Assembly: GCA_963971285.1 (NCBI GenBank)
Contig: OZ020258.1
Span: 12,792,614-12,856,613 of the forward strand
DNA length: 64,000 bases
Reading direction: 5' to 3'
Source of the DNA: Astropecten irregularis
Lineage: Eukaryota; Echinodermata; Asteroidea; Paxillosida; Astropectinidae
The first letter of the stretch is position 1, and each line of letters opens with the position of its first letter. Shown one piece after another: positions 4,217 to 44,411 of this stretch. Below the pieces are notes generated by a model that worked only from the letters and a program-made list of their open reading frames with translations, was not told where the DNA came from and searched no databases. Made by a program: the position numbers and the translations under genes.

Positions 4217-7200
4217 TCAGAAACACCATTGCAAGTTTAACATTGTCTTGTTTTGGTAACGTTTGGGACATATTTTAAAAGGGATAAATATGATGGAACA
4301 GATGAAGAGGAAGATACTAATTGTAATAAACGCAGCCGATAGGATGTAGCTAAGACTACAGCCTTCATGTTGCATGGCTTTGCAGACACTGGGATTGGTT
4401 GATGACCATTCGCCATTTGCTTGGCAGGTCCAGGATGAGGAGCCCTCCAGGACGAAGCCATCATCACACGCCACCTGCACAGATGCATTCACTAGATACA
4501 CTGATCCAGACGTCGCCCCGTCTCTTACCGCACCGGGAATGCCACAGCTGATGACTTTGATGGAAGCCTTTTGGATGTTCTGCAGCTTCTCTGACACCAC
4601 CTTGGTCTTGTTCGCGAATGAGAGGCTGCCGGTTGTCAGGGCGTCGAAGACGCAGTCAGTGGACTCATGGCACAAGTCCTTGATTTCCTGACTGACTGCA
4701 TCAGATTTTGGGACATCAAATGCTGGATGAAAATCCGGAGAGTGGTACGAGCTATGATCGTAAGGTGGTATGTAGGTGAATATGGAGTCTTGTTTGTTCA
4801 GCATCCATTCTGATCCAAACATGTGAATTTCTTGCAGTGGCGATCCAGTTTTCAAAATAGTCCCGTTGGGAAACTGCAAGTCGTCATCCGGGTCTCCATT
4901 CAGGTTACCCAACAAGCCCCTGACTTGGTCCTGGAACTTGCTGTCTAGCTGAGCAATGAAAGACATCACCTCTGGATCAATGTACACGATGACAGCAACG
5001 CCTGCACTGAATGCAAGCCTGACTTCAGACACGTCTCTGTTGAAGCTAATTCGGACGCCATTAATATGATGAACTCGAATGGGACTAGACTCAATACGTA
5101 ACTGCTCACCATCAACAAGAATCATTGTCTCGTTCGTGTTGGACATCTGGACCTGGACTCTAGCAGATTCGTTGGTTTGAATAACAAATGAGGTGTACAC
5201 AGAGGCATTGGTTCTGCGGAACCTCTCCATGCGAGCTTGGAAGGTCAGGTTATATAGTATCGATGACGCCATCAGGAACTCACCAGCTCCATTGAATGTA
5301 TACTTGTGTCCGTCAAGAGTTGTGATGTGAGGATCCCCATTGCCACCTCCTGGTCTAGGCGGTTCGTAGTCAGAGCAATCATCCGATGGTCGGTACTTGT
5401 AGTAGAAGTCGCAGTTATCGGACAACTTGCAACATCCAATCCACGGAAGAACATCATACCACTGATGCTTCCAGAAATGATCACCGGGGCTGTATCTGTC
5501 AGTTGTTCCTCCCCTAGGTTCACCAACCAGGATATTTCCATCTGCTCCGTAGCAACACTGCTGGCCTGAACCAGTTGGTGATGACGTGGTTGACCTGTAA
5601 CAGCTCCCAGCTCCAGGGTGGTAGAAAGAAAGTCCAAGGTTCGATTCTACAAAATTCAGAGAATCAACAGCAGCTTGTTGAGAAGTACATGGACACGGCC
5701 GGTTTGATCCAGACGCGACATCAACCAATTGCTTCTTGAAAACTGAACAAGGTGAAGAAACATCTTCCTTGATGGCGTAGTTCACAGACGAATAAACTCT
5801 TTTGAGACGTTCTGCGTCGTCCGTGTACACACCGGTAAGATCTTCTCTTTCCATGTCAGATGGTGTAAGGTAGACTACCATTACAGAGATAGGTCTACCA
5901 TTACTGGGGAGCGATTCCAGGATGGCATTTGGGTGTATTGTCAAGAACCCGTTGTTCGAAACGTTGATCATCAAAGTTATCCCATCCATTAGAACAGGAT
6001 GTCCATCGCTGTTATAATTTCCGTCTTGTATCAGTACATCTACATGTGTGATGCCGTCTCCTAAGCTGTTTGGATCCCAGGATAAGGTGATAAGCTCATC
6101 TGAAGTCAGGTCAACAACGGCACTTCCATTCTCGGGATCCTGTCGAACCGTAACAATTGATGGATAGTCCCGTTCAGATGCGACGTATACAGTGCCAGAA
6201 TATTGAAATGTTTTGCCATCATTAAGTGACACTTCAACCGACGTGAGTCCATTCTTGTAGAATGTTGGAGTGATGCAGTGCACAGAGTATTGGTTAATAC
6301 GAGTACCAGACACAATAGTATCGCCATACCCTGTAGAGAATCTACATTTGACATCTTGGAGGCCTATTGAGTTGGTTTCTAAGCAGGGGACTGTAAACGC
6401 GACCGTTTCACCTCCGAGTTCCCTCAAGTAGTACGGCTTAAACATCAGTAAATGGTTGTTTCTTGTAAGAGACAACCCAGCAGCGTATCCGTAGGATTCA
6501 TCGAGTTCATAACCATACACAATAACAGACATAGGCAATGAGAAAGGGTCAGACTGCTCGACGTACATGACGCCTTCCCCTCTAGGAAGCTGTACGACGA
6601 GAGATACGTAGTCAGTGTTTGGTATGTCAGTTTCATGCACGTGGGTGCCGTTAATGAGAGTACCATTTAGAAGCAGGGTCTTCCGAGATTCTGCGTTCAC
6701 CACGATATTGATGAAATTCACGTAGCCTTTAAAGTCTCCAGCGGAATGCGGTGGCGTCGTAAAACCAAAGATGAAACCGAAATGCTTCTCAGAGGGAACC
6801 TGTATCAGAGACGGGTCCACCGTGATGCCGTTTATCTTTGCCAGTTGCTGCATCATCAGAGTCGGCTTGCTGGAGGACACGAGGCCGGAACCAGACAGAC
6901 CCCCTTCCCAGAAATCACCGGAGTTCAAAGGCTGCATTCCAAATCCCGGGATGGTGACGATGGTGTCGCTGAAGTACGCAACGAGTCGATAGACATTGTC
7001 GTCGGTGGTGTCGGATGCAGTGTAGATGTGCCTGTGTCCCCAGCTCTCAACTGGTACCAACTGCTCGGCCAGAGTGTCGCAAGTCGAGCCCGGGCTGTTT
7101 GCACATTCGTTGCCGCTGAACACGGAAACCGGTTTGTCTGAGTGAATGTTACTACCAGTCAAATCTTGAGTTGCCTGCGCTTGAATGTGGACCGTCTCCA

Positions 7201-7840: not shown

Positions 7841-7941
7841 ACTGCAATCAAAAATAAATAGTATAATACAATTAAAAGTAATTAACTGCTGCAAACTACT
7901 CATCAGCCAAAATAATGACCTGAACTTAAAAACAAATGTTC

Positions 7942-12184: not shown

Positions 12185-15100
12185 CTATTCATCATGGGAG
12201 ACTTTGTTTTTACCCTTCAAAAACCAAACAAATAAGAGGATAAGAATAACAAGGGTTACCGATGAACCAACGACTATGATCGCAATGGCATATGCAGGAA
12301 GACCGTCTTCCGTGGTAGGAGAAGGTCTACATTCCGGAAGGTCTGACGACCACCGACCATCCCCCTGACACGTTAGACTGGAGACGCCCTGCACTGTGAA
12401 CCCAGTATCGCAGGTCACTTCCACGGTTGAATTCACGAGATACACTGACCCAGACATCATCCCATTCTCTACTGCACCAGGGAACCCACAGCTGATGACT
12501 TTGACCGAGGCTTTCTGTATATTACTGATGACGTCTGTCGCTTCTTTGGTCTTGTTTGCGAAGGAGAGGCTGCCTGTTGTGACGGCATCGAACAAGCAGT
12601 CAATGGACTCACCGCACAAGTCTTTGATCTCCTGGCTGACAGCATTCTTGTCGGGAACATTAAAGGTCGGTGAAAAATTCGGAAAGTGGTATGAGCTGTA
12701 GTCGTATGGTGAAATGTACTTGAATATGGAGCTGTCTTTTGTCACAAGCCACTCCATACCAAGCTTATGAATATCTTGCAGAGACGATCCAGTTTCCAAA
12801 ATAGTTCCGTTGGGAAACTGCAAGTCGTCATCCGGGTCTCCATTCAGGTTACCCAGCAAGCCGCTGACTTTGTCCTGGAACTTGCTGTCTAGCTGAGCAA
12901 TGAAAGACATCACCTCTGGATCAATGTAGACGATGACTGCAACGCCAGCACTGAATGCAAGCCTTCCTTCAGATAAGTCGGTGTTGAAGCTAATTCGGAC
13001 ACCTTTAAGATGATGAACTCGAATGGGACTAGACTCAATACGTAACTGCTCACCATCAACAAGAATCATGGTCTTGTTCTCGTTGGACATCTGAACCTGG
13101 ACACTAGCAGATTCGTTGGTTTGAATAACAAATGAGGTGTACACAGAGGCATTTGTGTTTTGGTATTTCTGCATGCGAGCTTGGAAGGTCAAGTTAAATA
13201 GTATCGATGATGCCATCAGGAACTCACCAGCTCCATTGAATGTATACTTGTGTCCATCAAGAGTTGTGATGTGGGGATCTCCATTGCCACCTCCTGGTCT
13301 AGGTGGTTCGTAGTCAGAGCAATCATCCGATGGTCGGTACTTGTAGTAGAAGTCGCAGTCATCGGACAACTTGCAACATCCAATCCACGGAAGAACGTCA
13401 TACCACTGATGCTTCCAGAAATGGTCACTAGGGCTGTATCTGTCAGCTGTTCCTCCCCCAGGTGGACCAAGCAGGATATTTCCATCTGCTCCGTAGCAAC
13501 ACTGCTGGCCTGAACCAGTTGATGATGACGTGGTTGACCTGTAACAGCTCTCAGAACCAGGATGGTAGAAAGAAAGTCCAAAGTTCGATTCCACAAAATT
13601 CAGAGAATCAACAGCAGCTTGTTGAGAAGTGCATGGACACGGGTTTAATCCACCTGCGACATCGACCAACTGCTCCTTGAAAACTGAACAAGGTGAAGAA
13701 ACATCTTTCTTGATGTTGTAGTTCACGGACGAATAAACTCTTTTGAGACGTCCTGCTTCGTTTGCGAACACACCACTGAGGTCTTCTCCAATTTTCAAAC
13801 CAGACGGAGTAAGGTAAAATGCTACTACAGAGATGGGTCTACCATTGCTCGGGAGAGATTCAAGGATGACATCTGGGTGTATCGTCAAATACCCATTATT
13901 TAAAACGTTGACCCTCAAAGTTATCCCATCCATTAGAACGGGAAATCCATCGCTGTTATAATTTCCATCTTGTATCAATACATTTACACGTGTGATGCCA
14001 TCTCCTAAGCTGTTAGGATCCCAGGATAGTGTAATAAGTTCATCTGAAGTCACGTCAACAATGGCACTTTCATCCTCGAGATCCTGTCGAACCGTAACAA
14101 TTGGTGGATAGTCCCGTTCAGAGGCTACGTATACAGTGCCAGAATATGGAAATGTTTTGCCATCATCAAGTGACACATCAACCGACGTGAGTCCATTCTT
14201 GTAGAATGTAGGAGTGATGCAGTCCAAGGAGTATTGGCCATTACGGATACCAGGCACAATTACATCTCCATAACCTGTAGAAAATCTACACTTTGCATCC
14301 GGAAGTGTAATTGAATTTGTTTCCAAACAGGGGACAGTTATGGAGAATACCTCGCCACCAAGTTCTCTCAAATAGTATGGCGTCAAACTCAGCAGCTGTT
14401 CATTGCTTGAAAGAGACAATCCCGCAGCATAACCGTAGGACTCTGCACTCTCGTATCCATACACAATGACAGACAAGGGTGAACCTTGTGGATCGGTCTG
14501 CTCAATGAAGTAGACACCTTCTCCTTTAGGAAGTTCAACAGTGAGTGAGACATAGTCTGTGTTTGGAACATCCTCCACATCGGTAGCATTGATGGGATTG
14601 TCACTAAGATATACAGTCTCACGCGAACTTTGCTTCACAATGATGCTTACGAAGTTGAAATAGCCACCAGAGTCTCCCCCTGAATGCGGAGGAGTCGTGA
14701 AACCAAAGACAAAGTCAAACTGTTCTTCAGCAGGAACTTGTATCAGAGACGGGTCCACCGTGATGCCGTTGATCTCTGCCAGTTGCTGCATCATCAGACT
14801 TGGCTTGCTTGAGGACACGAGGCCGGAACCAGACAGACTCCCTTCCCAGAACTCCCCTGGATCAAGAGTCTGGTTTGCAAGTCCCGGTATGGCTACGACA
14901 GTTGCACTGAAATACGCAACGATACGGTACATGTTGCTGTCTGTGCTTCGGGCTGCTGTATAGATGTGTGTCTGTCCCCAACTTTTGACGGGTATTAACT
15001 GTTCAGTCAATGTGTCACATGCTGACCCCGGATTATTTACACATATATTGCCACTGAATACAGCGACTGCTTTGTCAGATTGAATGATACTTCCTGTTAA

Positions 15101-15760
15101 GCCCTGTGACCCTTCACCTTGAATGTGAACTGCTTCTAATTTATTGACCAGGAAACTCAACACGTCACCTGGATTGTAGGTCTGACCTTCAAATGTAACA
15201 GCACCGCGTAAAGTAACAAGGACAGAGGTGGAATCTTTAGTCCCTATTACAGAAAACTGCGATTGCCGAGTGCTTTGTTGTGTTATGACAACATACTGTT
15301 CACCAAGATTGTTCGTCGGTATACCAAGAAAGCCATCTGTTGTATAATCCTGGTACATTAGCCCATAAGCCGATACATCACTTGATGCTGAGATATCAAT
15401 TGATTTGAAGCTTCTTTCGTTGCCTTCCATCATCAGCTCATTAGGTACAATGGTCTTCCTGAATTCTCCGGCCTCGATTACAAAGGTCTCCTGGAAAGGC
15501 TCCCCTTGTGTTTGATGCTTGCTGCTGATAGTGACGGTCGTCTCCTGGTCACTGAAGGCCACCACCAAAATGGAAAGCTCTCTGGTATGTGCATATTGAT
15601 TAGTATTTTCCGTGAACCCAACTATGAAGTGTTTACCTCTCGATATTCCGGAACACTTGGGCTGATCTGCTTTTGGGTTCTCTGCTGTTGCTTGTATCCC
15701 AGTGAAAACAAGTGCCATCAAGATGGTCAACCATGCAGAGCTATGCTCCAGATTCATCAT
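12185..15760 (-). CDS. Gene 2: IgGFc-binding/AMOP/VWD/sushi type I membrane protein
   Basis: Complete 1191-residue member read from one exon. An acceptor (TTTTCTTCCGCAG) lies 1 nt before the ATG at 15760. Domains: signal peptide 1-26; IgGFc-binding domain about 36-450; IPT-like segment 475-548 (PCLETNS to SGTVYVAS); a linker related to the SUSD2 middle region 555-690; AMOP-like module 700-826; VWD starting at GDPH (827) to about 1000; CCP 1090-1144; transmembrane helix about 1155-1180 (AYAIAIIVVGSSVTLVILIL); and a short basic and acidic tail (KGKNKVSHDE). It is most like gene 1 and lies on the same strand. This is the best reference copy for judging the damaged paralogues. No frameshift or stop was seen. 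The function is inferred from domains: extracellular binding protein, perhaps immune or mucosal. Confidence 0.94.
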   Translation of the reverse strand: MMNLEHSSAWLTILMALVFTGIQATAENPKADQPKCSGISRGKHFIVGFTENTNQYAHTRELSILVVAFSDQETTVTISSKHQTQGEPFQETFVIEAGEFRKTIVPNELMMEGNERSFKSIDISASSDVSAYGLMYQDYTTDGFLGIPTNNLGEQYVVITQQSTRQSQFSVIGTKDSTSVLVTLRGAVTFEGQTYNPGDVLSFLVNKLEAVHIQGEGSQGLTGSIIQSDKAVAVFSGNICVNNPGSACDTLTEQLIPVKSWGQTHIYTAARSTDSNMYRIVAYFSATVVAIPGLANQTLDPGEFWEGSLSGSGLVSSSKPSLMMQQLAEINGITVDPSLIQVPAEEQFDFVFGFTTPPHSGGDSGGYFNFVSIIVKQSSRETVYLSDNPINATDVEDVPNTDYVSLTVELPKGEGVYFIEQTDPQGSPLSVIVYGYESAESYGYAAGLSLSSNEQLLSLTPYYLRELGGEVFSITVPCLETNSITLPDAKCRFSTGYGDVIVPGIRNGQYSLDCITPTFYKNGLTSVDVSLDDGKTFPYSGTVYVASERDYPPIVTVRQDLEDESAIVDVTSDELITLSWDPNSLGDGITRVNVLIQDGNYNSDGFPVLMDGITLRVNVLNNGYLTIHPDVILESLPSNGRPISVVAFYLTPSGLKIGEDLSGVFANEAGRLKRVYSSVNYNIKKDVSSPCSVFKEQLVDVAGGLNPCPCTSQQAAVDSLNFVESNFGLSFYHPGSESCYRSTTSSSTGSGQQCCYGADGNILLGPPGGGTADRYSPSDHFWKHQWYDVLPWIGCCKLSDDCDFYYKYRPSDDCSDYEPPRPGGGNGDPHITTLDGHKYTFNGAGEFLMASSILFNLTFQARMQKYQNTNASVYTSFVIQTNESASVQVQMSNENKTMILVDGEQLRIESSPIRVHHLKGVRISFNTDLSEGRLAFSAGVAVIVYIDPEVMSFIAQLDSKFQDKVSGLLGNLNGDPDDDLQFPNGTILETGSSLQDIHKLGMEWLVTKDSSIFKYISPYDYSSYHFPNFSPTFNVPDKNAVSQEIKDLCGESIDCLFDAVTTGSLSFANKTKEATDVISNIQKASVKVISCGFPGAVENGMMSGSVYLVNSTVEVTCDTGFTVQGVSSLTCQGDGRWSSDLPECRPSPTTEDGLPAYAIAIIVVGSSVTLVILILLFVWFLKGKNKVSHDE

Positions 15761-17091
15761 TCTGCGGAAGAAAATATTGATGATATCATAAATTTTTTTG
15801 CCTATCCACGCATTTTATGGTACCGTTGTAACGCGTATGTAGAATGAAATTTCTTATCTATTTTGTTTTATGGGCGGGGCACATCGGTGAAAATCGTGCC
15901 TTGCTGTAAGCATAGATGACGAGTGTCACCACGCATTTTTGTGGCCGCCATGATTATGACACTATGGGCGAATTACAACCACTAAACTGTACACCTTTAT
16001 TGTGCATGTCATAATAGTTGACCGCTGTTATAATAACTTTTCGTTTACATTGCACTTGGTTCTTTGTTCCATAACTAAGCAAACAAACATTATTTTTTAA
16101 AAATCATGCCACATTATACAAAACATACAAAGAAAATGTGCGCAGGTTTGTGATGTTCGATGGATTTCACGGATAATGCGCAAACATCGCAAATCACAAA
16201 ACTGCGCAGATATTTCGTGAATTTGTGATGTACGATGTATCAAACATAATTATGTGGCCAGATATTTGTGATGTTTGATGTCCCTCCCCGCCACTATTCG
16301 TTGCTGTCTTGTGTATGATATGCTCAGTTAATTTCACGCGGTGAATAATGTAATTAATTCACGCCCCAAAGTGTCATGTGTCATGGCGACTACCACATCT
16401 CGCCCTGGGTACGAAACCACACTTATGTTTAACATTGATCCTTATATTTTTCTTTGAGTCTCATCCGAGGACGCGGTTCTGTCTCCGAACTTGCAAATGT
16501 CATTGAAATCGTAATTTTTTTATGGAAAATCCCAAGCCTAAAGTGCATAACAAACCAAGCCATTTGTATACTGTTAATGATGGGAGATCAAATAGTCCAA
16601 AATCATGTCGGAGTCTTCCACACTAATTAAGTTTGCATTGACAAATCACAAGAAAAAAATAATTACAAGGGCGGATGCACGATTATTTTTTTTTTTAAGG
16701 GGGGCATTATTTTGACCCCTGTTTTGTTTGAATTTAAGAGGCTGGTGCGTGATGTTCTGCTATGGCCTGTCAAATTTGCTTTTGTCAAACATTCTAAATG
16801 ATATTTTCGCTTAATGAAAGAAAATACAAAATACAATACACAATGTTTGCTTGTGGGGAGGGGGGGGGGGGGGAGGTAACGATCAGAGGGTGGCTAGATA
16901 CCATATTCCTGTCAAGATCAATGAGGGTGGAATACCCACTTTTAATTTGAATAAGAAAGAATGAAATCTCCATTTCGCTTTTTGATGTGTTATGCTTAAC
17001 AATTATATCAATGTATTGGTGCCACCGAGAACAAAATTCATGAAAGGAATCAGCCTCGGCAATTCATGTCCATGCTTTCTGAACATGTTCG

Positions 17092-19135: not shown

Positions 19136-19148
19136 AAAAAAAAAAAAA

Positions 19149-22035: not shown

Positions 22036-22450
22036 AGGGTCCGGCGCCTTTGTCTTTCCTTTCCATAGCTGTCTATCTTGTGTGTCATCTGGTCTGACAT
22101 GGAAATATTCTAGATCTTGTTTGACATTGTCCTTCCATCTCTTCTTGGGTCTTCCTCTCGGTCTTCTTCCCTCTATCTCAACATCTTGTGAGTCATTTGC
22201 TCTCACACGGAAGTGCTCTTAGTCTTTGCCCTTGTCCTTCCATCTCTTTTTGGGTCTTCCTCGCGGTCTTCCTCCCTCTATCTCAACATCTTGCGAGTCA
22301 TTCAGTCTCACATGGAAGTTTTCGAGATCTTGTTAGATATTGTCCTTCCATCTCTTCCCGGGTCTTCCTCTCGGTCTTCTTCCCTCTATCTCAACATCTT
22401 CCGTTTTCTGGTCTCACATGGAAGTGTTATAGATCTTGTTTGACATTGTA
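22036..22450 (-). repeat. Tandem ~105-bp units of LINE-like C-terminal codons
   Basis: Three to four units recur with a period of 105-108 bp, marked by CTCTATCTCAACATCTT at 22171, 22276 and 22384. On the minus strand each unit reads as VEIEGRRPRGRPKKRWKDN-like followed by VKQDLE and a short acidic stretch. That is the typical C-terminal tail of LINE reverse-transcriptase proteins. The period is a multiple of three, so the frame is kept between most units. A second array lies at 29690-29990, in the equivalent place upstream of gene 4. Confidence 0.7.
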
Positions 22451-22811
22451 ACTAGATCTCATTGCAGCTTCAGCCTTAACCATTTTAGGTTCAATGTTAC
22501 GACTAAGCCTCCCGAAAAATGCTCCTGTCAAAACAAACATTTTGTTGTGGGGTCGCAATAATATTGTAAACCCGAAATCAAACCACGCACAAAGGAAAAT
22601 AAAATTGTTATTGAAGCATCAAACACAAGCTCAAACTTGGAGCAGTATAAAATGAAGCAAATCTTATTTCTGAATAAATAATATCATTGATCAACTTCCT
22701 CCCCTATGAGAAATTGTCGAAGTGTAACTGTAAAGAAACAATAGCAACATGAACGCACAGTGAATGCCAGTAGAATGTTCAACTTTTGTTTTTACTTCGT
22801 TGCCTTACAGT

Positions 22812-25800
22812 ATGCTGAATCTTAAGATGGGCCACGTTTGGGTGACCGTCTTGATGGCACTTGCTTTGACTGAGATGCAAGCGTCTGCTCAGATTCAGGT
22901 TTTACCAACCAGCGATCAGCCCAGGTGCTCCGGAATATCAAGAGGTAAACACTTCATAGTTGGGTTCTCTGAAAATCATGAAAGTAAGGCATATACCAGA
23001 GAGCTTTCCATTTTGGTGGTGGCCTTCAGTGACCAGGAGACGACCGTAACTATCAGCAGCAAACATCAAACACAAGGGGAGCCTTTCCAGAAGACCTTTG
23101 TGGTAGAAGCCAGAGGATTCAGAAAGACCATTGTACCCGATGCGCTGATGATGGAAGGCAATGAAAGAAGCTTCAAATCAATTGATATCTCAGCATCCAG
23201 TGATGTATCGGCTTATGGGCTAATGTACCAGGATCACACAACAGACGGCTTTCTTGGGATTCCGACGAACAATCTTGGTGAACAATATGTTGTTATAACA
23301 CAACAAAGCACTCTGTCATCTCAGTTTTCAGTAATAGGGACTAAAGATTCCACCTCTGTCCTTGTTACTTTACGTGCTGCTGTTACATTTGAAGGTCAGA
23401 CCTACAATGCAGGTGACGTGTTGAGTTTCATGGTCAATGAATTGGAGGCAATTCACATTCAAAGTCCGGATGAACAAGATTTGACAGGAAGTATCATTCA
23501 ATCTGACAAAGCAGTGGCTGTATTCAGTGGCAATATATGTGGAATTAATCCGGGGTCAACATGTGACACATTGACTGAACAGTTGATACCCGTCAAAAGT
23601 TGGGGACAGAAACACATCTATACAGCAGCCCGAAGCACAGACAGCAACATCTACCGTATCGTTCCCTANNNNNNNNNNNNNNNNNNNNNNNNNNNNNNNN
23701 NNNNNNNNNNNNNNNNNNNNNNNNNNNNNNNNNNNNNNNNNNNNNNNNNNNNNNNNNNNNNNNNNNNNNNNNNNNNNNNNNNNNNNNNNNNNNNNNNNNN
23801 NNNNNNNNNNNNNNNNNNNNNNNNNNNNNNNNNNNNNNNNNNNNNNNNNNNNNNNNNNNNNNNNNNNNATCGTTGCCTATTTCAGTGCAACTGTCGTAGC
23901 CATACCAGGACTTGCAAACCAGACTCTTGATCCTGGGGAGTTCTGGGAAGGGAATCTGAATGGTTCCGGCCTCGTGTCCTCAAGCAACCCAACTCTGATG
24001 ATGCAGCAACTGGCAGAGATAAACGGCATCACGGTGGACCCGTCTCTGATACAAGTTCCTGCTGAAGAACAGTTTGACTTTGTCTTTGGTTTCACGACTC
24101 CTTCGCATTCAGGGGGAGACTCTGGTGGCTATTTCAACTTCGTCAACATAATTGTGAAACAAAATTCGCGTCAGACTGTGTATCTTAACGGCGATCCCAT
24201 CAACGCTACCGATGTCTTGGAAAGTGATGTTCCAAACACTGACTATGTCTCACTCACTGTTCAACTTCCTAAAGGAGAAGGTGTCTACTTCGTCGAGCAG
24301 ACCGATCCAAAAGGATCACCCTTGTCTGTCATTGTGTATGGATACGAGAGATCAGAATCCTTCGGTTATGCCGCTGGATTGTCTCTTTCAAGCAATGCGC
24401 AACTGCCAAGTTTGACGCCATACTATTTGCGAGAACTTGGTGGCGAAGTATTCTCCATAACTGTCCCCTGTTTGGAAACAAATTTAATTACACTTCAAGA
24501 TGCAAAGTGTAGATTCTCTACAGGATATGGAGATGTAATTGTGCCTGGTATTCGTAATGGCCAATACTCTGTAGACTGCATCACTCCTACATTCTACAAA
24601 AATGGACTCACATCGGTTGCTGTGTCACGTGATGATGGCATCACATTTCCATATTCTGGCATCGTGTACGTCGCCTCTGAAGAAGACTTTACCCCACACG
24701 TTACAGTGCAACAGGAGAATTCTGAGGATGGTAGCGGCATCATTGACCTAACCTCTGACGGCCTTATCACTTTATCCTGGGATCCCAGTACCTTGGGTGA
24801 CGGAATAAGTCTTGTGAATGTGATGATACAAGACTCAGATTACAACATTGATGGAAATCCCGTTTTCGTGGAAGGGGTGCCCTTGATGTCCAATTTAAAC
24901 GATGGAAGATTGACTGTTCATCAAGAGACTTAAACACCCTCTCCGGTAATGGCATCTCCTTAATGGCATTTTACCTTACTCCGTTTCAGTCTGGAATCAT
25001 ACGAAGCAACGTGAACAAGGTGTACTCGTCTGTGTACCACACCATTAAAAGAAATAGCCACGTCGTCAAAAGAGAACTTTCTTTACTTTGTTCAGTTTAT
25101 ATGAAAAGTTGGTCGATGTCGCGGTTGGATTAAACCCCTGTCCCTGCACGTCTCAACAAGCTGGTGTTGATTCTCTGAACTTTGTGGAATCGAACTTTGG
25201 TCTTTCTTTCTATCATCCTGGTGCTGAGAGCTGTTACAGGTCAACCACGTCATCATCAACTGGTTCAGGCCAGCAGTGTTGCTACGGAGTAGATGGAAAT
25301 ATCCTGATTGGTCCACCTGGGGGAGGAACAGCTGATAGATACAGCCCTGGTGATCATTTCTGGAAGCATCAGTGGTATGACGTTCTTCCGTGGATTGGAT
25401 GTTGCAAGTTGTCCGATAACTGTGACACCTACTACACGTACAGACCATCAGATGATTGCTCTGAGTACGAACCACCCCGACCAGCTGGTGGAACAGGGGA
25501 TCCCCACATAACAAGTTTAGACGGGAACAAATTTACCTTCAATGGAGCTGGTGAATTCCTTATGGCATCTTCAGAACTGCATAACCTGACATTCCAAGCT
25601 CGCATGGAGAGGTTCCGCAGAACCAATGCCTCTGTGTACACCTCATTTGTTATTCAAACCAACGAATCTGCTAGAGTCCAGGTCCAGATGTCCAACGAGA
25701 AAAAGACCATGATTCTTGTTGATGGTAAGCAGTTACGTATTGAGTCTAGTCCCATTCTAGTTCATCATCTAAAGGTGTCCGAATTACCTTCAACACCGAC

Positions 25801-26108
25801 ATGTCTGAAGTCAGGCTTGCATTCAGTGCAGGCGTTGCTGTCATCGTGTACATTGATCCAGAGGTGATGTCTTTCATTGCTCAGCTAGACAGCAAGTTCC
25901 AGGACCAAGTCAGGGGCTTGCTGGGTAACCTGAATGGAGACCCGGATGACGACTTGCAGTTTCCCAACGGGACTATTTTGAAAACTGGATCGTCCCTGCA
26001 AGATATCCATAAGCTTGGTTGGAGTGGCTGGTGACCAAAGGCAGCTCCATATTCACGTACATTTCACCGTACGACTTCAGCTCATACCACTTCCCGAATT
26101 TTGCTGCC
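22812..26108 (+). pseudogene. Gene 3: frameshifted, truncated IgGFc-binding/AMOP/VWD gene
   Basis: The start is taken at the ATG at 22812, just after the acceptor TTGCCTTACAG. Codons run through a signal peptide, the IgGFc-binding domain and the IPT-like segment. The frame is interrupted by 200 Ns at 23669-23868, which may be artificial. It then breaks near 24925 (stop at 24931), near 25090, at about 25769 and at about 26022. The last two are 1-bp losses compared with gene 4 (CTTAAA to CTAAA; GGTTTGG to GGTTGG). Homology ends at 26108, inside the region after the VWD domain, so the CCP domain and anchor are missing. The sequence then runs directly into the promoter-upstream block of gene 4, as expected for an unequal tandem duplication. 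It may be a true pseudogene, or a gene damaged by assembly error. The breaks are described only, not repaired. Confidence 0.8.
23669..23868. other. Assembly gap of exactly 200 N
   Basis: The gap lies in the IgGFc-binding domain of gene 3. The left flank ends CTACCGTATCGTTCCCTA and the right flank begins ATCGTTGCCTATTTCAG. In genes 4 and 5 the same place reads CGTATCGTTGCCTATTTC without interruption. The flanks therefore overlap by about 11 bases, and the gap probably holds no missing sequence. Confidence 0.95.
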
Positions 26109-26154
26109 ACTCTATACAAGTTTGAAATTATACCCTGAATTCACGAAGAAAAAA

Positions 26155-29689: not shown

Positions 29690-29990
29690 CGCCTTTGTCT
29701 TCCTTTTCCAGACCTGCCTATCTTGTGAGTCATCTGGTCTCACATGGCAGTATTCTAGATCTTGTTTGACATTGTCCTTCCATCTCTTCTTGGGTCTACC
29801 TCTCGGTCTTCTTCCCTCTATCTCAACATCTTGCGAGTCAGCTGGTCTCACATGGAAAGTGTTCTAGATCTTGTTTGACATTGTCCTTCCATCTCTTCTT
29901 CTGTCTTCCTCTCGGTCTTTTGCCCTCTATTTCAACATCTTGTGAGTCATCTGGTCTCACATGGAAGTGTTCTAGATCTTGCTCGTTATT
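29690..29990 (-). repeat. Second array of ~109-bp LINE-like C-terminal units
   Basis: The CTCTATCTCAACATCTT-type marker recurs at 29816 and 29925. On the minus strand one frame reads EGRRPRGRPKKRWKDN, then VKQDLEYCHVRPDDSQD and WKRKTKAP, the end of a LINE-type ORF. The array is positionally equivalent to 22036-22450. Confidence 0.7.
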
Positions 29991-30154
29991 GTAACTAGCA
30001 TTGCAGCCCCACCCTTAACCATTTATGTTCAATTTTGCGACTATAAGATTCCCGGGAAATGCTCCTGTCAGAACAAACAAAAATGTTGTTGTGGGCTCCC
30101 AATATTATTGTAAACCCGAAATCAAACCATGCACGAAGGAATATAAAATTCGGG

Positions 30155-31135
30155 TACGGTCATGGGATCTCCTACATCCCCAGCCTTCGCGAACATCTTC
30201 AAGGAAGAATTTGAATCATCATCCATCCTCACCGCCAACTTCAAACCCTCCCTATGGCTACGCTATGTTGACGACACTTTCGTCGTTTGGCCCCACGGAC
30301 AAGACCGACTGCAGGAGTTCCTTGTTTACCTGAACCAGCAGCATCCAACCATCAAGTTCACCATGGAACAGGAACAGGCAAGCCAACTCTCCTTCCTTGA
30401 CGCCCACCCACACAGACCGGTACCTCAACTAGCGATCGTTCCATTATCCGGCCATCAAATCTTCGGTCAACCGGACCTTCGTCAGACGGGCCTACCACAC
30501 CTGCCATGAAGACCATCTGCCACAAGAACTTCATCACATCAAGAGCGCCCTCATCCTCAACGGCTATCACCACAAGAGCATCGACCTCCAAGACCCCCGC
30601 CCCAAGGTGTTAGGGTCCCCTATACCCGAAGCCAACCCACCTATCGCCACTGTGTGCCTCCCCTTCCTAAGTCCCACCTCCAACCAGCTTCCCAGGATCC
30701 TCCAGTCAATCAACATCCGGATCCTCCACTCAGCACCCAACAAACTTCAAGCCATGCTCCACATCCACAATGACAAGCGACCACCCAACAGTCAACCGCT
30801 TTCCAAGACTTTACCGCATTCCATGCGAATGCGGTAAAGTCTACATCGGGGAAAAGGGACGTAACTCCTTCAAACTAGAATCAAGGAACATCGAGCCCAC
30901 GGACGACGGCGTGAATACGACAAGTCCGCCATCGTCAACCATGCATACTCCTCGGATCACAACATCATATGGGACAACACAGAACTTATCACCCCCATCA
31001 AGAACTGGTTTCCCCGAAGGATCAGAGAGGCCTTCGAAATCTTCAACCACAACACCGTCACCCAGGACGTGGGCTTCAAACTGAGTGACATCTGGCGCCC
31101 ACTCCTGAACACCACCACCCCTGGGAAGTAGTGTC
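30155..31135 (+). mobile_element. Penelope-like element relic (RT plus GIY-YIG)
   Basis: The first part reads MGSPTSPAFANIFKEEFESS and then WLRYVDDTFVVW, the YVDD reverse-transcriptase box in Penelope style. It continues IKFTMEQEQASQLSFLD. About 400 bp further on, in another frame, comes LYRIPCECGKVYIGEKGR, the core of a GIY-YIG endonuclease. This RT and GIY-YIG pair identifies Penelope-like elements. The N-terminal part is missing and frames are shifted at several points. It sits inside the gene 4 intron, is absent from the equivalent gene 3 intron, and so was inserted after the duplication or lost from one copy. Confidence 0.75.
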
Positions 31136-31575
31136 ATCTATACCCGAAAGCCCCCTCCCCCAGGTCCCCATCCCCATCTTGGCTAGGGTCTCCTATACCC
31201 AAACCAACTTCCCGCCATCCACAGCTGACCGCACACACATCCAGAATCCCAACTCCACGCTCCATCGCATCCTGTTTCCTTTATAACCCACTGACGTCTC
31301 GCTTCACCATGCAAAGCTTCAAATCATACCGAATATAACATTCTAATGAAGCATCAAAAATACACGTTCAAACTTGGCGCAGTATAAAATTGAAGCAAAG
31401 CCTATTTTATTTTCGAATAAATAATGTAATTGATCAACTTCTACCCCAATGAAAAGATGTCGGACTGTATGTAACTGTAAAGAAACATCAAAGTTACATG
31501 CCCGCACAGTGAATGCCAGTATAATGTTATTTTTTTGTTTTTACTTTATTGCCTTACAGTATTCTGAATCTTAAG

Positions 31576-34377
31576 ATGGGTCGTGTTTGGTTGACCGTCT
31601 TGATGGCACTTGCTTCGACTGGGATGCAAGCGTCTGCTCAGATTCAGATGTTACCACCCAGCGATCAGCCCAGGTGCTCAGGAATATCAAGAGGTAAACA
31701 CTTCATAGTTGGCTTCACGGAAAATACTTATCAAAATGCACATACCAGAGAGCTTTCCATTTTGGTGGTGGCCTTCAGTGACCAGGAGACGACCGTCACT
31801 ATCAGCAGCAAGCACCAAACACAAGGGGAGCCTTTCCAGGAGACTTTTGTGGTAGAGGCCGGAGGATTCAGAAACACCATTGTACCTGATGAGCTGATGA
31901 TGGAAGGCAATGAAAGAAGCTTCAAATCAATTGATATCTCAGCATCCAGTGATGTGTCGGTTTATGGGCTAATGTACCAGGATCACACAACAGACGGCTT
32001 TCTTGGGATACCGACGAACAATCTTGGTGAACAATATGTTGTCATAACACAACAAAGCACTCTGTCATCTCAGTTTTCAGTAATAGGGACTAAAGATTCC
32101 ACCTCTGTCCTTGTTACTTTACGTGGTGCTGTTACATTTGAAGGTCAGACCTACAATGCAGGTGACGTGTTGAGTTTCATGGTCAATGAATTCGAGGCAA
32201 TTCACATTCAAAGTCCGGAAGAACTAGATTTGACAGGAAGTATCATTCAATCTGACAAACCAGTGGCTGTATTTAGTGGCATTATATGTGGAGAAAATCC
32301 GGGGTCAGCATGTGACACATTGACTGAACAATTGATACCCGTCAAAAGTTGGGGACAGAAACACATCTATACAGCAGCCCGAAGCACAGACAGCAACATC
32401 TACCGTATCGTTGCCTATTTCAGTGCAACTGTCGTAGCCATACCAGGACTTGCAAACCAGACTCTTGATCCAGGGGAGTTCTGGGAAGGGAATCTGAATG
32501 GTTCCGGCCTCGTTTCCTCCAGCAAGCCAACTCTGATGATGCAGCAACTGGCAGAGATAAACGGCATCACGGTGGACCCGTCTCTGATACAAATTCCCTC
32601 TGAAGAACAGTTTGACTTTGTCTTTGGTTTCACGACTCCTTCGCATTCAGGGGGAGACTCTGGTGGCTTTTTCAACTTCGTAAGCATCATTGTGAAGCAA
32701 AATTCACGTCAGACTGTGTATCTTAACGGCTATCCCATCAATGCTACCGACGTGGTGGAATGTGATGTTCCAAACACTGACACTGGATTAAACCCCTGTC
32801 CCTGCACGTCTCAACAAGCTGGTGTTGATTCTCTGAACTTTGTGGAATCGAACTTTGGTCTTTCTTTCTATCATCCTGGTGCTGAGAGCTGTTACAGGTC
32901 AACCACGTCATCATCAACTGGTTCAGGCCAGCAGTGTTGCTACGGAGTAGATGGAAATATCCTGATTGGTCCACCTGGGGGAGGAACAGCTGATAGATAC
33001 AGCCCTGGTGATCATTTCTGGAAGCATCAGTGGTATGACGTTCTTCCGTGGATTGGATGTTGCAAGTTGTCCGATAACTGTGACACCTACTACACGTACA
33101 GACCATCAGATGATTGCTCTGAGTACGAACCACCCCGACCAGCTGGTGGAACAGGGGATCCCCACATAACAAGTTTAGACGGGAACAAATTTACCTTCAA
33201 TGGAGCTGGTGAATTCCTTATGGCATCTTCAGAACTGCATAACCTGACATTCCAAGCTCGCATGGAGAGGTTCCGCAGAACCAATGCCTCTGTGTACACC
33301 TCATTTGTTATTCAAACCAACGAATCTGCTAGAGTCCAGGTCCAGATGTCCAACGAGAAAAAGACCATGATTCTTGTTGATGGTAAGCAGTTACGTATTG
33401 AGTCTAGTCCCATTCTAGTTCATCATCTTAAAGGTGTCCGAATTACCTTCAACACCGACATGTCTGAAGTCAGGCTTGCATTCAGTGCAGGCGTTGCTGT
33501 CATCGTGTACATTGATCCAGAGGTGATGTCTTTCATTGCTCAGCTAGACAGCAAGTTCCAGGACCAAGTCAGGGGCTTGCTGGGTAACCTGAATGGAGAC
33601 CCGGATGACGACTTGCAGTTTCCCAACGGGACTATTTTGAAAACTGGATCGTCCCTGCAAGATATCCATAAGCTTGGTTTGGAGTGGCTGGTGACCAAAG
33701 GCAGCTCCATATTCACGTACATTTCACCGTACGACTTCAGCTCATACCACTTCCCGAATTTTGCTGCCACTTTCAATGTTCCGGACAAGAATGCAGTCAG
33801 CCAGGAGATCAAAGACTTGTGCGGTGAGTCCATCGACTGCTTGTTTGACGCCGTAGTTACCGGAAGCCTTTCATTCGCGAACAAGACCCAGATAGTGTCA
33901 GGCACTCTCAAGACCATCCAGAAGGCGGCTGTCAAAATTGTCAGTTGTGGGTTTCCTGGAGAGATTGAAAACGGGGCTACTTCCGGGTCTGTATATCTAG
34001 TCAATGCCACAGTAAGTGCCACATGCGAGAATGGCTTCACACTGAAAGGCGCCTCCCAATTGACCTGTCAGGAGAATGGCCAGTGGTCATCCAACCTTCC
34101 TCTGTGTGTCGTCAGTTGTGGGTTTCCTGGAGAGATTGAAAACGGGGCTACTTCCGGGTCTGTATATCTAGTCAATGCCACAGTAAGTGCCACATGCGAG
34201 AATGGCTTCACACTGAAGGGCGCCTCCCAATTGACCTGTCAGGAGAATGGCCAGTGGTCATCCAACCTTCCTCTGTGTGTCGACAGCTCGAAGAGCAGTG
34301 CATCTAAATCATCATGTGCTTTCTCGAGCTGGTTGGCTGTCATGGTGGTTGCGTTTGGACATGCTTACATCTTCTAA
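31576..34377 (+). CDS. Gene 4: internally deleted IgGFc/AMOP/VWD protein with two CCPs
   Basis: One exon, 933 residues from the ATG at 31576. The ancestral ATG after the acceptor (TTACAG|T) is ATT at 31561 here, so initiation must use the next in-frame ATG, which still gives a signal peptide (MGRVWLTVLMALASTG). Domains: IgGFc-binding domain 34-402, cut short; AMOP-like module 405-526; VWD from GDPH at 528 to about 700; two CCP domains at 790-845 and 847-902. At residue 402/403 (nucleotide about 32780) the sequence jumps in frame, losing the end of the IgGFc domain, the IPT-like segment and the linker (about 300 residues compared with gene 2). The C-terminus has a small-residue stretch (DSSKSSASKSS) then the hydrophobic end WLAVMVVAFGHAYIF with no basic tail, which suggests a GPI-anchor signal. 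The deletion could be genuine or an assembly join. Confidence 0.88.
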   Translation: MGRVWLTVLMALASTGMQASAQIQMLPPSDQPRCSGISRGKHFIVGFTENTYQNAHTRELSILVVAFSDQETTVTISSKHQTQGEPFQETFVVEAGGFRNTIVPDELMMEGNERSFKSIDISASSDVSVYGLMYQDHTTDGFLGIPTNNLGEQYVVITQQSTLSSQFSVIGTKDSTSVLVTLRGAVTFEGQTYNAGDVLSFMVNEFEAIHIQSPEELDLTGSIIQSDKPVAVFSGIICGENPGSACDTLTEQLIPVKSWGQKHIYTAARSTDSNIYRIVAYFSATVVAIPGLANQTLDPGEFWEGNLNGSGLVSSSKPTLMMQQLAEINGITVDPSLIQIPSEEQFDFVFGFTTPSHSGGDSGGFFNFVSIIVKQNSRQTVYLNGYPINATDVVECDVPNTDTGLNPCPCTSQQAGVDSLNFVESNFGLSFYHPGAESCYRSTTSSSTGSGQQCCYGVDGNILIGPPGGGTADRYSPGDHFWKHQWYDVLPWIGCCKLSDNCDTYYTYRPSDDCSEYEPPRPAGGTGDPHITSLDGNKFTFNGAGEFLMASSELHNLTFQARMERFRRTNASVYTSFVIQTNESARVQVQMSNEKKTMILVDGKQLRIESSPILVHHLKGVRITFNTDMSEVRLAFSAGVAVIVYIDPEVMSFIAQLDSKFQDQVRGLLGNLNGDPDDDLQFPNGTILKTGSSLQDIHKLGLEWLVTKGSSIFTYISPYDFSSYHFPNFAATFNVPDKNAVSQEIKDLCGESIDCLFDAVVTGSLSFANKTQIVSGTLKTIQKAAVKIVSCGFPGEIENGATSGSVYLVNATVSATCENGFTLKGASQLTCQENGQWSSNLPLCVVSCGFPGEIENGATSGSVYLVNATVSATCENGFTLKGASQLTCQENGQWSSNLPLCVDSSKSSASKSSCAFSSWLAVMVVAFGHAYIF
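33940..34281 (+). repeat. 171-bp tandem duplication of the CCP domain in gene 4
   Basis: Units 33940-34110 and 34111-34281 are almost identical (one difference seen, AAAGGC versus AAGGGC). Each encodes exactly one 57-residue sushi domain from VSCGFPGEIENGA to SSNLPLC. The duplication keeps the frame and lies within a single exon, so it arose by slippage or unequal exchange rather than exon shuffling. Confidence 0.95.
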
Positions 34378-34525: not shown

Positions 34526-34559
34526 TCATTCATTCATTCATTCATTCATTCATTCATTT
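34526..34559. repeat. (CATT)n microsatellite
   Basis: About eight CATT units immediately downstream of gene 4. Confidence 0.95.
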
Positions 34560-40924: not shown

Positions 40925-41449
40925 CCCAAAACGTTTTCCCACATCGTTCAACTATACACAGGCACCCTGGTACATTTCATTTGCCTTATTTGTTATGAAA
41001 CACACACACAAACAACGCATTGTGCAGTCCCAGGATTACAGCTTTCATTTTACGCCACAATCATTTAGAGAAAACGCCGTAGGGACTACTGCGCTGCAGG
41101 AGACATACCGATTGTTCGATCCCAGGGTTTTCATGATAAATTTTGATTATCATGCTAATTTATTTTATAGACGATAACATTTTTATCTAAGTCAGGCTGA
41201 TGAAGCGTACGTTATGGGTGACTAAAGTCGGTCACTTCCTCCAAACCCAAGCATACTCTATACAAAAGGGATCAACTTTACCTCAAAATTATTGTAGTAA
41301 AAAATAGAAGGGAGTCTCATTGCCAACATATTAATTCATAATTATCACTATGATTTTATTTCAGAGATTATCCATTATCTATGTGTAACTGTATAAAACA
41401 ACTCAATTGAAAAACTTTGGGAATTAAAGTTTACTGTTGTCAAAATTGA

Positions 41450-41690
41450 GAAAGGGGTGAAAGTGCTTTAAAATTATTGCTTAACACATAATTTATAAGT
41501 TTATGCAAGTGCTTGCGTTCTGCAAGTGACGTAAGCAAGGTTTTTCGTCGCGAAATGTGGGGTGCTAAATTATGGGGCTAAAATACCTCCTTTTTAGCAC
41601 GAACAATGATATAGACATGTTGAGTTTTATAACAATACAGATGTATTTAATTTCATATACGTTTTGATTACAGTAATCCTTTAATCATAC
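41450..41690 (-). repeat. Inverted copy of the 1730-2160 repeat
   Basis: Read on the minus strand it contains CCCCACATTTCGCGACGAAA, AACCTTGCTTACGTCACTTG and AAGCAATAATTTTAAAGCAC, matching 1860-1915 and 2090-2150. It is old and diverged. Confidence 0.6.
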
Positions 41691-41984
41691 TCGCTCAGAT
41701 TGACAAGAGCAATGTTCACAGATTCACATAATAACATGGCCTGATAAAAAAGTAATGATCGATTATACCGGAAAGGTAAGATTAGTAGTAACATTCTCAT
41801 CGGTGGAAATTTTCTGAATTTCTGAATTTTATAAAGTCACTATCGTCAAAAGTGGCATCAGTAAATAACATTGCCACCGTAAAAAGGAATTCCATGGTCA
41901 ATGGGTAAATATCAGTGGAATTTAGTTACAACATGGACTTTATAATTAGAATCTAATCTTGTTTTAATTCGTTGTTTTTCTAGC

Positions 41985-44411
41985 ATGCTGAATCTAAAGA
42001 TGAGTCGTATTTGGTTGACAGTCTTGATGACTCTTCTTCTTAATGGTATGCGAGTGTCTGCTCAGCTATCGCCCAGCAGTCAGCCCGGGTGCTCTGGAAC
42101 ATCAAGAGGTAAACACTTCATTCTTGGGTTTTCTGAAAATCTAGGTCCTGGAGCAGATACCAGAGAGCTTTCCATTTTGGTGGTGGCCTTCAGTGACCAG
42201 GAGACGACCGTCACTATCAGCAGCAAGCATCAAACACAAGGGGAGCCTTTCAAGAAGACCTTTGTGGTAGAAGCCGGAGGATTCAGGAAGACCATTGTAC
42301 CTAATGAGCTGATGATGGAAGGCAATGAAAGAAGCTTCAAATCAATTGATATCTCAGCATCCAGTGATGTATCGGCTTTTGGGTTGAGGTATCAGAATTA
42401 CAAAACAGATGGCTTTCTTGGGATACCGACTACCAGTCTTGGTGAACAGTATGTGGTCATGACGTCCATGCCAAATAGGCCGCAGACACAATTTTCTGTA
42501 ATAGGGACTAACGGTTCCACCACTGTCCTTGTTACTTTACGCGGTGCTGTTACATTTGAAGATCGGACCTATTATGCTGGCGACGTGTTGAGATTCACGG
42601 TCAATGAAGCAGAAGCAGTTCAGATCCAAGGTCTGGGGTCACAGGACTTAACAGGAAGTATCATTCAATCTGACAAACCAGTCGCTGTATTCAGTGGCAA
42701 TTTATGTGGCAATAATCCGGAGTCAGCATGTGACACATTGACTGAACAGTTGATACCCGTCAAAAGTTGGGGACAGAAACACATCTATACAGCAGCCCGA
42801 AGCACAGACAGCAACATCTACCGTATCGTTGCCTATTTCAGTGCAACTGTCGTAGCCATACCAGGACTTGCAAATCAGACTCTTGATCCAGGGGAGTTCT
42901 GGGAAGGGAGTCTGTCTGGTTCCGGCCTCGTGTCCTCCAGCAAACCAACTCTGATGATGCAGCAACTGGCAAGTATTGATGGTGAGGTAGTGGACCCGTC
43001 TCTGATACAAGTTCCCTCTGTAGAACAGTTTGACTTTGTCTTCGGGTTTACGACTCCTTCACATTCAGGGGAAAACTTTGGTGACTTTTTCAATTTCATC
43101 AACATCATTGTAAATCAAAGGTCTCGTCAGACAGTGTACCTTAACGGCTATCCCATCAATGCTACAAACGTAAATGAAAGTAATGTTCCAAACACTGACT
43201 ATGTTTCACTCACTGTTCAACTTCCTAAAGGAGAAGGTGTCTACTACGTTAACCAGACTGACCCTAGTGGTTCACCCTTGTCTGTTATGGTGTATGGATA
43301 TGAACATGACGAATCATACGGTTATGCAGCTGGATTGGGTCTTCCCAACACTGGCCAGCTGCTGAGTTTGACGCCATACTATTTGCGAGAACTTGGTGGC
43401 GAACTATTATCAATAACTGTCCCCTGTTTGGAAACAAATTCAACTACACTTCAGGATGCAAAGTGTAGATTCTCTACAGGTTATGAGGATCTTATTGTGT
43501 CTGGTTATCGAAATAACGAATTCTCTGTGGACTGCATCACCCCTACATTCTACCGAATTGGTCTCACGTCGGTTGCTGTGTCACTTGATGATGGCATCAC
43601 ATTTCCATTTTGTGGTACTGTGCACGTCGCCTCTCAGTTAGAATTGGCACCACTCGTCACAGTACAACAGGAGCAATCCGATGGTAGCGGCATCATTGAT
43701 CTAAATTCTGACGGTCTTATAACTTTATCCTGGGATCCCAGTACCTTGGATGACGGAATAAGTCATGTGGATGTCATGATACAAGAGGCAAAGAACAACA
43801 GCGATGGAAATCCGGTTTTCTTGGATGCGGTGACTTTGACGTCCAACGTCTTAAACATAGGATCATTCACTTTTGACATAGGGGCACTCTTTAACCCAGA
43901 TTCCGGTCACGGTATCTTCTTCTTCAGAATTGTCTGGGAATTTAGTTTTGAGCGTCTTCTGAAAAGCATCTTCTCGGCTGCGAAAGTATTCATCAAGACA
44001 GTTGTTGACTTGCCATGTGCGGTTTTTAATGGTGTATTGGCTAATGTCCCGTCTGGTCTAAGTGCATGTCCCTGCAGATCTGACAAAGCGGATAAAGATC
44101 TGGATTTTGTGAAATCGAACGATTTAATTTGGTACTACCACCCTGGTGCTGAGAATTGTTACAGGTCAGCCAAGCCATCATCGACTGGTTCGGGCCAGCA
44201 GTGCTGCTACGGAAAAGACAGGCATATTCTGATTTGGCCTCTTGGGGGAGGAACAGCTGACAGATACAGCCCCGATTATAGTTTCTTGAGGCATCTGTGG
44301 TATGACGTTCTTCCGTGGATTGGATGTTGCAAGTTGTCTGATAACTGCGATAAATATTACCAATATCGTCCAGCAGATAATTGCTGTGGTTACAATTCCC
44401 GAAAGCCCTAA
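41985..44411 (+). CDS. Gene 5: IgGFc-binding/AMOP protein lacking VWD, CCP and anchor
   Basis: Single exon, 808 residues. The ATG at 41985 lies 1 nt after the acceptor GTTTTTCTAG|C. Domains: signal peptide about 1-27; IgGFc-binding domain about 35-455 (ACDTLTEQLIPVKSWGQKHI, YRIVAYFSATVVAIPG); IPT-like segment from PCLETNS; a linker that diverges from the other members after about residue 625; AMOP-like module with CCYG and WYDVLPWIGCCKLSDNC. It ends YRPADNCCGYNSRKP and a stop, exactly where the others continue into the GDPH of the VWD domain. With no transmembrane helix, GPI-like end or VWD domain, the product should be a soluble secreted form. The long intact frame argues for a functional gene rather than decay. 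It is the most diverged member. Confidence 0.9.
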   Translation: MLNLKMSRIWLTVLMTLLLNGMRVSAQLSPSSQPGCSGTSRGKHFILGFSENLGPGADTRELSILVVAFSDQETTVTISSKHQTQGEPFKKTFVVEAGGFRKTIVPNELMMEGNERSFKSIDISASSDVSAFGLRYQNYKTDGFLGIPTTSLGEQYVVMTSMPNRPQTQFSVIGTNGSTTVLVTLRGAVTFEDRTYYAGDVLRFTVNEAEAVQIQGLGSQDLTGSIIQSDKPVAVFSGNLCGNNPESACDTLTEQLIPVKSWGQKHIYTAARSTDSNIYRIVAYFSATVVAIPGLANQTLDPGEFWEGSLSGSGLVSSSKPTLMMQQLASIDGEVVDPSLIQVPSVEQFDFVFGFTTPSHSGENFGDFFNFINIIVNQRSRQTVYLNGYPINATNVNESNVPNTDYVSLTVQLPKGEGVYYVNQTDPSGSPLSVMVYGYEHDESYGYAAGLGLPNTGQLLSLTPYYLRELGGELLSITVPCLETNSTTLQDAKCRFSTGYEDLIVSGYRNNEFSVDCITPTFYRIGLTSVAVSLDDGITFPFCGTVHVASQLELAPLVTVQQEQSDGSGIIDLNSDGLITLSWDPSTLDDGISHVDVMIQEAKNNSDGNPVFLDAVTLTSNVLNIGSFTFDIGALFNPDSGHGIFFFRIVWEFSFERLLKSIFSAAKVFIKTVVDLPCAVFNGVLANVPSGLSACPCRSDKADKDLDFVKSNDLIWYYHPGAENCYRSAKPSSTGSGQQCCYGKDRHILIWPLGGGTADRYSPDYSFLRHLWYDVLPWIGCCKLSDNCDKYYQYRPADNCCGYNSRKP

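Follow-up and report, generated by a model that had tools for sequence, protein, structure and literature searches.

In this study, we describe a family of genes in the starfish Astropecten irregularis whose complete members encode an IgGFc_binding head (PF17517), as found in FCGBP, followed by AMOP, VWD, C8-3_MUC4, and sushi modules, as found in proteins of the Mesh/SUSD2/MUC4 type, and whose intact copies are open from start to stop within a single coding exon. An intron-free, possibly mRNA-derived founder fits this arrangement. Five paralogues lie at positions 4217 to 44411 of the window (the whole 64,000-nucleotide stretch that was analyzed; chromosome 15, C22:12792614-12856613, assembly eaAstIrre1), with g1 and g2 on the minus strand and g3, g4, and g5 on the plus strand, in agreement with the original prediction of five paralogues in 40 kb. 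Searches of the genome (475.7 Mb in 168 contigs) revealed two further full-length copies on chromosome 18, which that prediction did not mention, bringing the family to seven copies found. The features of the window copies are as follows.

4217..7840, minus strand: g1, complete single coding exon of 1207 codons, with IgGFc_binding, TIG-like, AMOP, VWD (GDPH), C8-3_MUC4, and Sushi domains and a transmembrane-like tail
7842..7843, minus strand: g1 predicted 3' splice site AG, one base ahead of the ATG
12185..15757, minus strand: g2, complete single coding exon of 1190 codons, domains as in g1, transmembrane-like tail
15762..15763, minus strand: g2 predicted 3' splice site AG
14456..15337, minus strand: g2 IgGFc_binding domain (P0002 160-453, E of 1.3e-49)
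14123..14395, minus strand: g2 TIG/IPT-like domain (P0002 474-564), homologous to the TIG exon of Mesh-type genes
13346..13657, minus strand: g2 AMOP domain (P0002 720-823, Pfam)
12803..13285, minus strand: g2 VWD domain (P0002 844-1004, Pfam)
13271..13282, minus strand: g2 GDPH motif, predicted Asp-Pro autocleavage site (motif seen in the sequence; mechanism as described in PMC10880436)
12518..12646, minus strand: g2 C8-3_MUC4 domain (Pfam)
12329..12490, minus strand: g2 Sushi domain (Pfam)
22809..22810, plus strand: g3 predicted 3' splice site AG
22812..26111, plus strand: g3, damaged, with a 200-N assembly gap at 23669-23868 and frame breaks near 24930, 25770, and 26019; similarity stops at 26111
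25126..26111, plus strand: g3 segment matching g4 32784-33771, identical save for two single-base deletions
31558..31559, plus strand: g4 predicted 3' splice site AG; the adjoining ATG is now ATT, and the next in-frame ATG lies 15 bases on, at 31576
31576..34377, plus strand: g4, single coding exon of 933 codons, with two near-identical sushi repeats and a GPI-like tail
33940..34286, plus strand: g4 tandem duplication of the sushi unit (171 bp, 2.0 copies, 98% matches)
41982..41983, plus strand: g5 predicted 3' splice site AG
42000..44411, plus strand: g5, single coding exon of 803 codons, with IgGFc_binding, TIG-like, and AMOP domains and then a stop; no VWD, sushi, or C-terminal anchor

IgGFc_binding exceeded its Pfam gathering score in all five window copies (in g3 through its pieces), with E values from 1.3e-9 (the second g3 piece) to 9.4e-54, and AMOP was likewise present in all five (again through pieces in g3; E of 6.8e-11 to 1.3e-12). 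VWD was found at about 1e-16 in g1, g2, and g4, as one domain per copy and not several as in FCGBP; it is partial in a g3 piece (7.8e-6) and absent from g5. Sushi scored between 1.1e-10 and 1e-21 in g1, g2, and g4, so that all four domains named in the original prediction passed their gathering scores, and did so jointly in g1 (P0001), g2 (P0002), and g4 (P0006). The full set had been ascribed to every copy; this is true of g1 and g2 only, since g4 lacks about 300 amino acids, g5 ends after AMOP, and g3 is damaged. Two domains had gone unmentioned. C8-3_MUC4 is above its gathering score in g1, g2, and g4, which share the order AMOP, VWD, C8-3_MUC4 (g5 stops after AMOP, and g3 lacks C8-3), and a TIG-like domain ahead of AMOP was recognized through homology to the TIG exons of Mesh-type genes (z of 17.3 and 13.4). 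Pfam itself made no TIG call in the window proteins, where g1 gave a subthreshold Anth_Ig match. NIDO was found neither in the window proteins (Pfam) nor at the family loci among the 21 NIDO matches in the genome, and NCBIfam returned no match for P0001 or P0002. Among solved structures, the VWD region matches FCGBP chains (8rde; E of 1.4e-34 for the whole query) and AMOP matches isthmin-1 (9c6t; E of 2.7e-9), while the best hit of the IgGFc head (E of 0.78) is not meaningful. By eye, g1, g2, g4, and g5 show no long Ser/Thr-rich mucin region.

Some further features were seen in and around the cluster. About 12 kb before the window lies an AMOP-only open frame of 187 amino acids with a leader-like start (L039:7562-8122; C22:12780193-12780630), which is 50% identical to P0002 across the AMOP part. 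At 60420-61646, two minus-strand frames, one of them Ser/Thr rich and neither with a Pfam match, may form one secreted or receptor gene, and a 355-bp tandem repeat (1.9 copies, 96%) occupies 2005-2691.

The copies differ in their state of preservation. Over a stretch of 986 bases, g3 and g4 are free of substitutions and differ by two single-base deletions in g3; this stretch lies near the assembly gap and reflects either very recent copying or an assembly effect there. It starts at the point where g4 has suffered an in-frame loss (at 32781/32785) of the equivalent of P0002 420-722, which takes in the last part of the IgGFc profile together with the TIG-like region. Cryptic splicing was considered as the source of the g4 gap and rejected, since the missing segment has no GT start and AG end in the aligned copies; a DNA deletion or recombination fits better. 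g5, which has an additional in-frame ATG at 41985, displays a higher overall dN/dS (0.24 to 0.47) than the others and an unusual internal hydrophobic stretch near residue 663. In g2, a second ATG lies one codon upstream of the annotated start. Upstream of g3 and g4 we also noted a 105- to 109-bp minisatellite (22075-22449 and 29720-29981), which recurs upstream of one chromosome-18 copy and, as a fragment of 55 bases, at the other. On the reverse strand it can be read as repeats of RRPRGRPKKRWKDNV..., which resemble the tail of a LINE-type reverse transcriptase. A reverse transcriptase fragment upstream of g4 (30147-31128; RVT_1 E of 0.0005, below cut-off) is one that we take to resemble a Penelope-like element.

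With respect to gene structure, g1, g2, g4, and g5 are open from ATG to stop over the lengths listed above, with colinear domain matches, and to this extent the proposal that the whole coding part is one exon stands. It requires amendment at the 5' end, where a further, noncoding exon is indicated: at the start codon of all seven copies (five in the window and two on chromosome 18; the seven are not independent of one another) there is a pyrimidine-rich stretch followed by AG, and in the five window copies the 20 bases before the AG are 70 to 80% pyrimidine. Because this apparent acceptor is present in every copy, it is likely to be the 3' splice site of an intron in the 5' untranslated region. 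BLAST similarity begins within about 20 bases of the AG for g2-g4, g3-g5, and g4-g5, about 25 bases inside the coding part for g2-g3 and g2-g5, and about 120 bases inside for g1. In g1, g3, and both chromosome-18 copies the frame stays open through the AG up to an upstream in-frame ATG, and an unspliced start at that codon is possible in these copies.

The C-terminal half of the family has intron-bearing relatives in the same genome. Profile searches and tblastn identified genes with NIDO, TIG, AMOP, VWD, and C8-3 in order at C20:0.374-0.380 Mb and C8:32.005-32.016 Mb, and P0002 474-1092 is matched colinearly by frames of the former in six blocks and of the latter in seven, with z of 4.5 to 23.5 (frames of at least 35 amino acids, score of at least 38, z of at least 4; exon ends are approximate). 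In-frame stops occur in every gap between homologous blocks (5 of 5 and 6 of 6, respectively), and the homologous half thus appears from its sequence to be split into at least six and seven exons in these two Mesh-type genes. By Pfam, the first homologous block is a TIG domain, which passes the cut-off in the C8 gene and falls just short of it in the C20 gene. P0002 565-715 found no match to Mesh-type exons above the cut, and the C20 gene has GEPH where the family has GDPH. In Mesh, the order is NIDO-TIG-AMOP-VWD-sushi-transmembrane segment, according to PMC4964579; in the family, the IgGFc head occupies the place that NIDO normally has in a body of the Mesh/MUC4 type. Elsewhere in the genome, eight paired NIDO and C8-3_MUC4 matches on C24 (1.5-11.9 Mb) and one pair at C16:15.83-15.84 Mb, with no AMOP match there, constitute another expanded NIDO family.

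A similar picture emerges for the head. PF17517 has at least 20 scored matches in the genome, 8 in the family and 12 others. In the nine of these 12 others that were examined by eye, an AG after a pyrimidine-rich stretch lies no more than 26 bases from the conserved motif, and because of this acceptor-like AG the leader of the nonfamily genes probably sits on another exon; at one such locus, L001, an in-frame ATG precedes the AG. In the window family, leader and IgGFc head share one exon. A tree of 15 IgGFc heads (six intact family copies and nine others) grouped the family together (support 100/100) on a stem of 1.48, with uncertain neighbors (support 86/83, long branches). Prokaryotic and viral relatives of the head were sought with two short peptide patterns drawn from the window family, a narrow net; none was confirmed among the 82 prokaryotic genome-contig stretches that met one of the patterns or among 600 viral-contig stretches that met the pattern search. 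L001 itself (C8:4594579-4595502) has, by eye, an IgGFc domain and then a hydrophobic segment in a frame of 852 amino acids whose long tail contains several tyrosines, and is possibly a signaling form.

How the copies multiplied can be read in part from their flanks. The chromosome-18 copies are 96.2% identical to each other over 5.8 kb. Upstream noncoding DNA is common to them and g3/g4, with 82% identity over 0.8 kb in one of the two copies and 81% over 0.2 kb in both. Between g3 and g4 themselves, the upstream DNA matches at 84% over 0.7 kb, and noncoding DNA downstream of g4 recurs at both chromosome-18 copies at 84 to 85% over 1.3 kb. Because noncoding flanks are shared, g3, g4, and the chromosome-18 copies spread as DNA, and retroposition is ruled out as the source of the latter; for g1, g2, and g5, no gene-adjacent shared flank was seen. 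The local expansion proposed in the original prediction is supported, with DNA-level duplication as the route for these four copies, and only the founder would call for a retroposition step, if one took place.

All six copies with open frames (g1, g2, g4, g5, and both chromosome-18 copies; the broken g3 was omitted) bear the mark of purifying selection. In pairwise tests, dN/dS was below 1 in 85 of 85 domain comparisons (0.03 to 0.64, the ratios being rough where dS, at up to 2.7, nears saturation), and overall values were 0.14 to 0.47; the long frames are hence under selection and not open by chance. An immune-type role, at which the original prediction had hinted, is not shown by these comparisons, in which no positive selection was seen. 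Silent divergence is uneven along the genes. Between g1 and g2, dS is 1.72 in IgGFc, 0.13 in AMOP, 0.18 in VWD, and 1.29 in sushi, and identity at fourfold sites is 0.29, 0.23, and 0.32 in 100-residue windows starting at 120, 170, and 220, 0.69 and 0.70 at 270 and 320, 0.49 and 0.43 at 370 and 420, 0.84 over 536-1012, and 0.47 to 0.53 from 1020. For 8 of the 15 pairs, the best high-identity silent-site segment was equaled in none of 2,000 permutations, and the other 7 showed no clear segment (50 to 257 of 2,000). A regional mutation rate is disfavored as the cause, since the high-identity region differs between pairs (536-1012 in g1-g2, 68-828 in g2-g4); for the same reason, gene conversion or recombination is the best reading of these sequence mosaics. 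VWD is the most uniform part (dS of 0.06 to 0.34 over 10 pairs), and the IgGFc heads other than that of g1 differ by a dS of 0.02 to 0.31, against 1.36 to 2.13 between the g1 head and all others.

The family proteins carry a leader, cysteine-rich modules, and tails of the kinds given below, and we would say from these features that they are secreted or surface bound. By a plain hydropathy count, the C terminus of g1 and g2 is a strongly hydrophobic segment followed by a short tail; that of g4 and the chromosome-18 copies resembles a GPI signal, being weakly hydrophobic and lacking a charged end; and g5 has no C-terminal hydrophobic segment and one internal hydrophobic stretch. Of the six intact copies, only g5, which has no VWD, is without GDPH; the motif occurs in the other five (g1, g2, g4, and the two copies on chromosome 18), and the g3 piece carries it too. 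Since FCGBP and MUC4 are cleaved at GDPH within a VWD domain (PMC10880436), a two-part protein is likely by analogy. As to role, a protein labeled by name as IgGFc-binding belongs to a sea star transcript module described as adhesion related (PMC10320347), and another, also labeled by name, is tabulated with positive values among the genes that change when sea cucumber skin ulcerates (PMC4906609). The genes most likely encode putative surface-bound or secreted, GDPH-cleaved mucosal or adhesive binding proteins, with the binding role taken from family names.

Taken together, these data favor, by a little more than an even chance, a history in which chimera formation, a retroposed founder, DNA-level spread with conversion, and a cleaved surface or secreted binding protein are all combined. 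An FCGBP-type IgGFc_binding head would have been joined onto a Mesh/SUSD2/MUC4-type body (TIG-like, AMOP, VWD with GDPH, C8-3_MUC4, sushi, and anchor), and a spliced transcript of this chimera was probably reinserted into the genome, an event that would have removed the leader intron and no fewer than five to six body introns together. The retroposed copy would use a noncoding first exon spliced at the start codon. Its descendants may then have multiplied, at least partly through duplications at the DNA level, both inside chromosome 15 and between it and chromosome 18, and exchanged segments by gene conversion. The protein would enter the secretory path, probably be cut at GDPH into two held-together parts, and be displayed on the cell surface by an anchor, transmembrane in g1 and g2 and GPI-like in g4 and the two copies on chromosome 18, or, in the case of g5, be secreted, with the IgGFc head presumably binding mucus, matrix, or microbial glycoproteins.

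The original prediction had offered intron loss or a retroposed founder in explanation, and the intron-free founder is supported by comparison with the relatives of each half, whose introns are absent from the window family; stepwise loss is a possible alternative to retroposition. No direct parent of the family was found in the genome, nor any intron-bearing chimera among the best-scoring candidates, and marks of retroposition would have decayed, because silent divergence between the g1 head and the rest approaches saturation. That the introns were instead lost singly, or through partial conversion with cDNA, with no retroposed founder, is in our view somewhat unlikely. The long separate history of the family in the IgGFc tree would have allowed it, and the acceptor at the ATG could be the original splice site of the gene; against this, all copies lack the body introns and the leader intron jointly, and the matches scored in the genome included no family member that keeps some of them. 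It is improbable that much of the cluster is nonfunctional, consisting of decaying copies and assembly duplicates. Such a state would account for the broken g3 beside its gap, for the g3/g4 identity, and for the dN/dS and odd hydrophobic stretch of g5, but it sits badly with six open copies whose overall dN/dS is well below 1.

Two other roles deserve consideration alongside the cleaved binding protein. Structural adhesive or mucus-coat proteins (of epidermal mucus or tube-foot secretion) without a recognition role are a tentative alternative, in keeping with a domain set common to MUC4, SUSD2, and FCGBP and with the adhesion-related sea star module (PMC10320347), albeit not with the lack of a visible long Ser/Thr-rich mucin region. 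An immune recognition family diversified by gene conversion, like the SpTransformer genes of sea urchins, we consider unlikely: the clustering, mosaic silent sites, variable tails, and domain losses would all suit it, as would the sea cucumber ulceration table (PMC4906609) and the precedent itself, in which the genes are tightly clustered (PMC5491942) with two exons and a mosaic second exon (PMC8634487). However, dN/dS is low throughout, only seven copies were found, and the heads apart from that of g1 are close and not strikingly diverse.

It is instructive to set the family beside known systems. FCGBP is not known to have an AMOP domain, a sushi domain, or a membrane anchor. The family resembles it in its PF17517 head and in a VWD that carries GDPH and matches FCGBP chains (8rde), but FCGBP has 13 VWD domains (PMC10880436), compared to one here, set in a Mesh/MUC4-type body. 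Mesh, an insect septate junction protein (DVSSJ2), has TIG, AMOP, VWD, and sushi domains and one transmembrane segment in common with the family (PMC4964579); however, its head is NIDO and not IgGFc_binding, and the window family is multicopy with a single coding exon. SUSD2 and MUC4 share AMOP and VWD, the C8-3 model is named for MUC4, and SUSD2 is a type I transmembrane protein with a sushi domain (PMC5571916, PMC4902942); yet SUSD2 has Somatomedin B and MUC4 has NIDO and EGF, where the window family has the IgGFc head instead. The SpTransformer (Sp185/333) proteins are unrelated, and the window family, unlike them, gives no sign of positive selection in pairwise tests. SpTransformer genes have their leader on a separate exon. 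The likeness lies in the clustering of an echinoderm gene family, in its mosaic sequence, and in a two-exon structure (PMC5491942 and PMC8634487). Within the literature searched, one paper, a mucus review, contains both IgGFc and AMOP, and "AMOP domain" with IgGFc returned nothing; the IgGFc-Mesh/MUC4 architecture may already be annotated in other protein databases.

One speculative, and quite unlikely, possibility is that these genes represent a new kind of starfish receptor, an IgGFc-Mesh fusion, retroposed and run as a clustered recognition family. In it, conversion would hold the cleavable VWD part more uniform than any other, and the differences among copies would lie in a g1-type or g2-type head, in the sushi module, and in the anchor (transmembrane, GPI-like, or secreted). 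In more general terms, the family offers a concrete route along which the exon structure of a large multidomain surface protein can be lost, perhaps in a single step, while the family still expands. It presents a defined domain swap, IgGFc for NIDO on a Mesh/MUC4 frame, that is datable across echinoderms, and its mosaic pattern allows a direct test of the part played by gene conversion in a family of echinoderm surface proteins.
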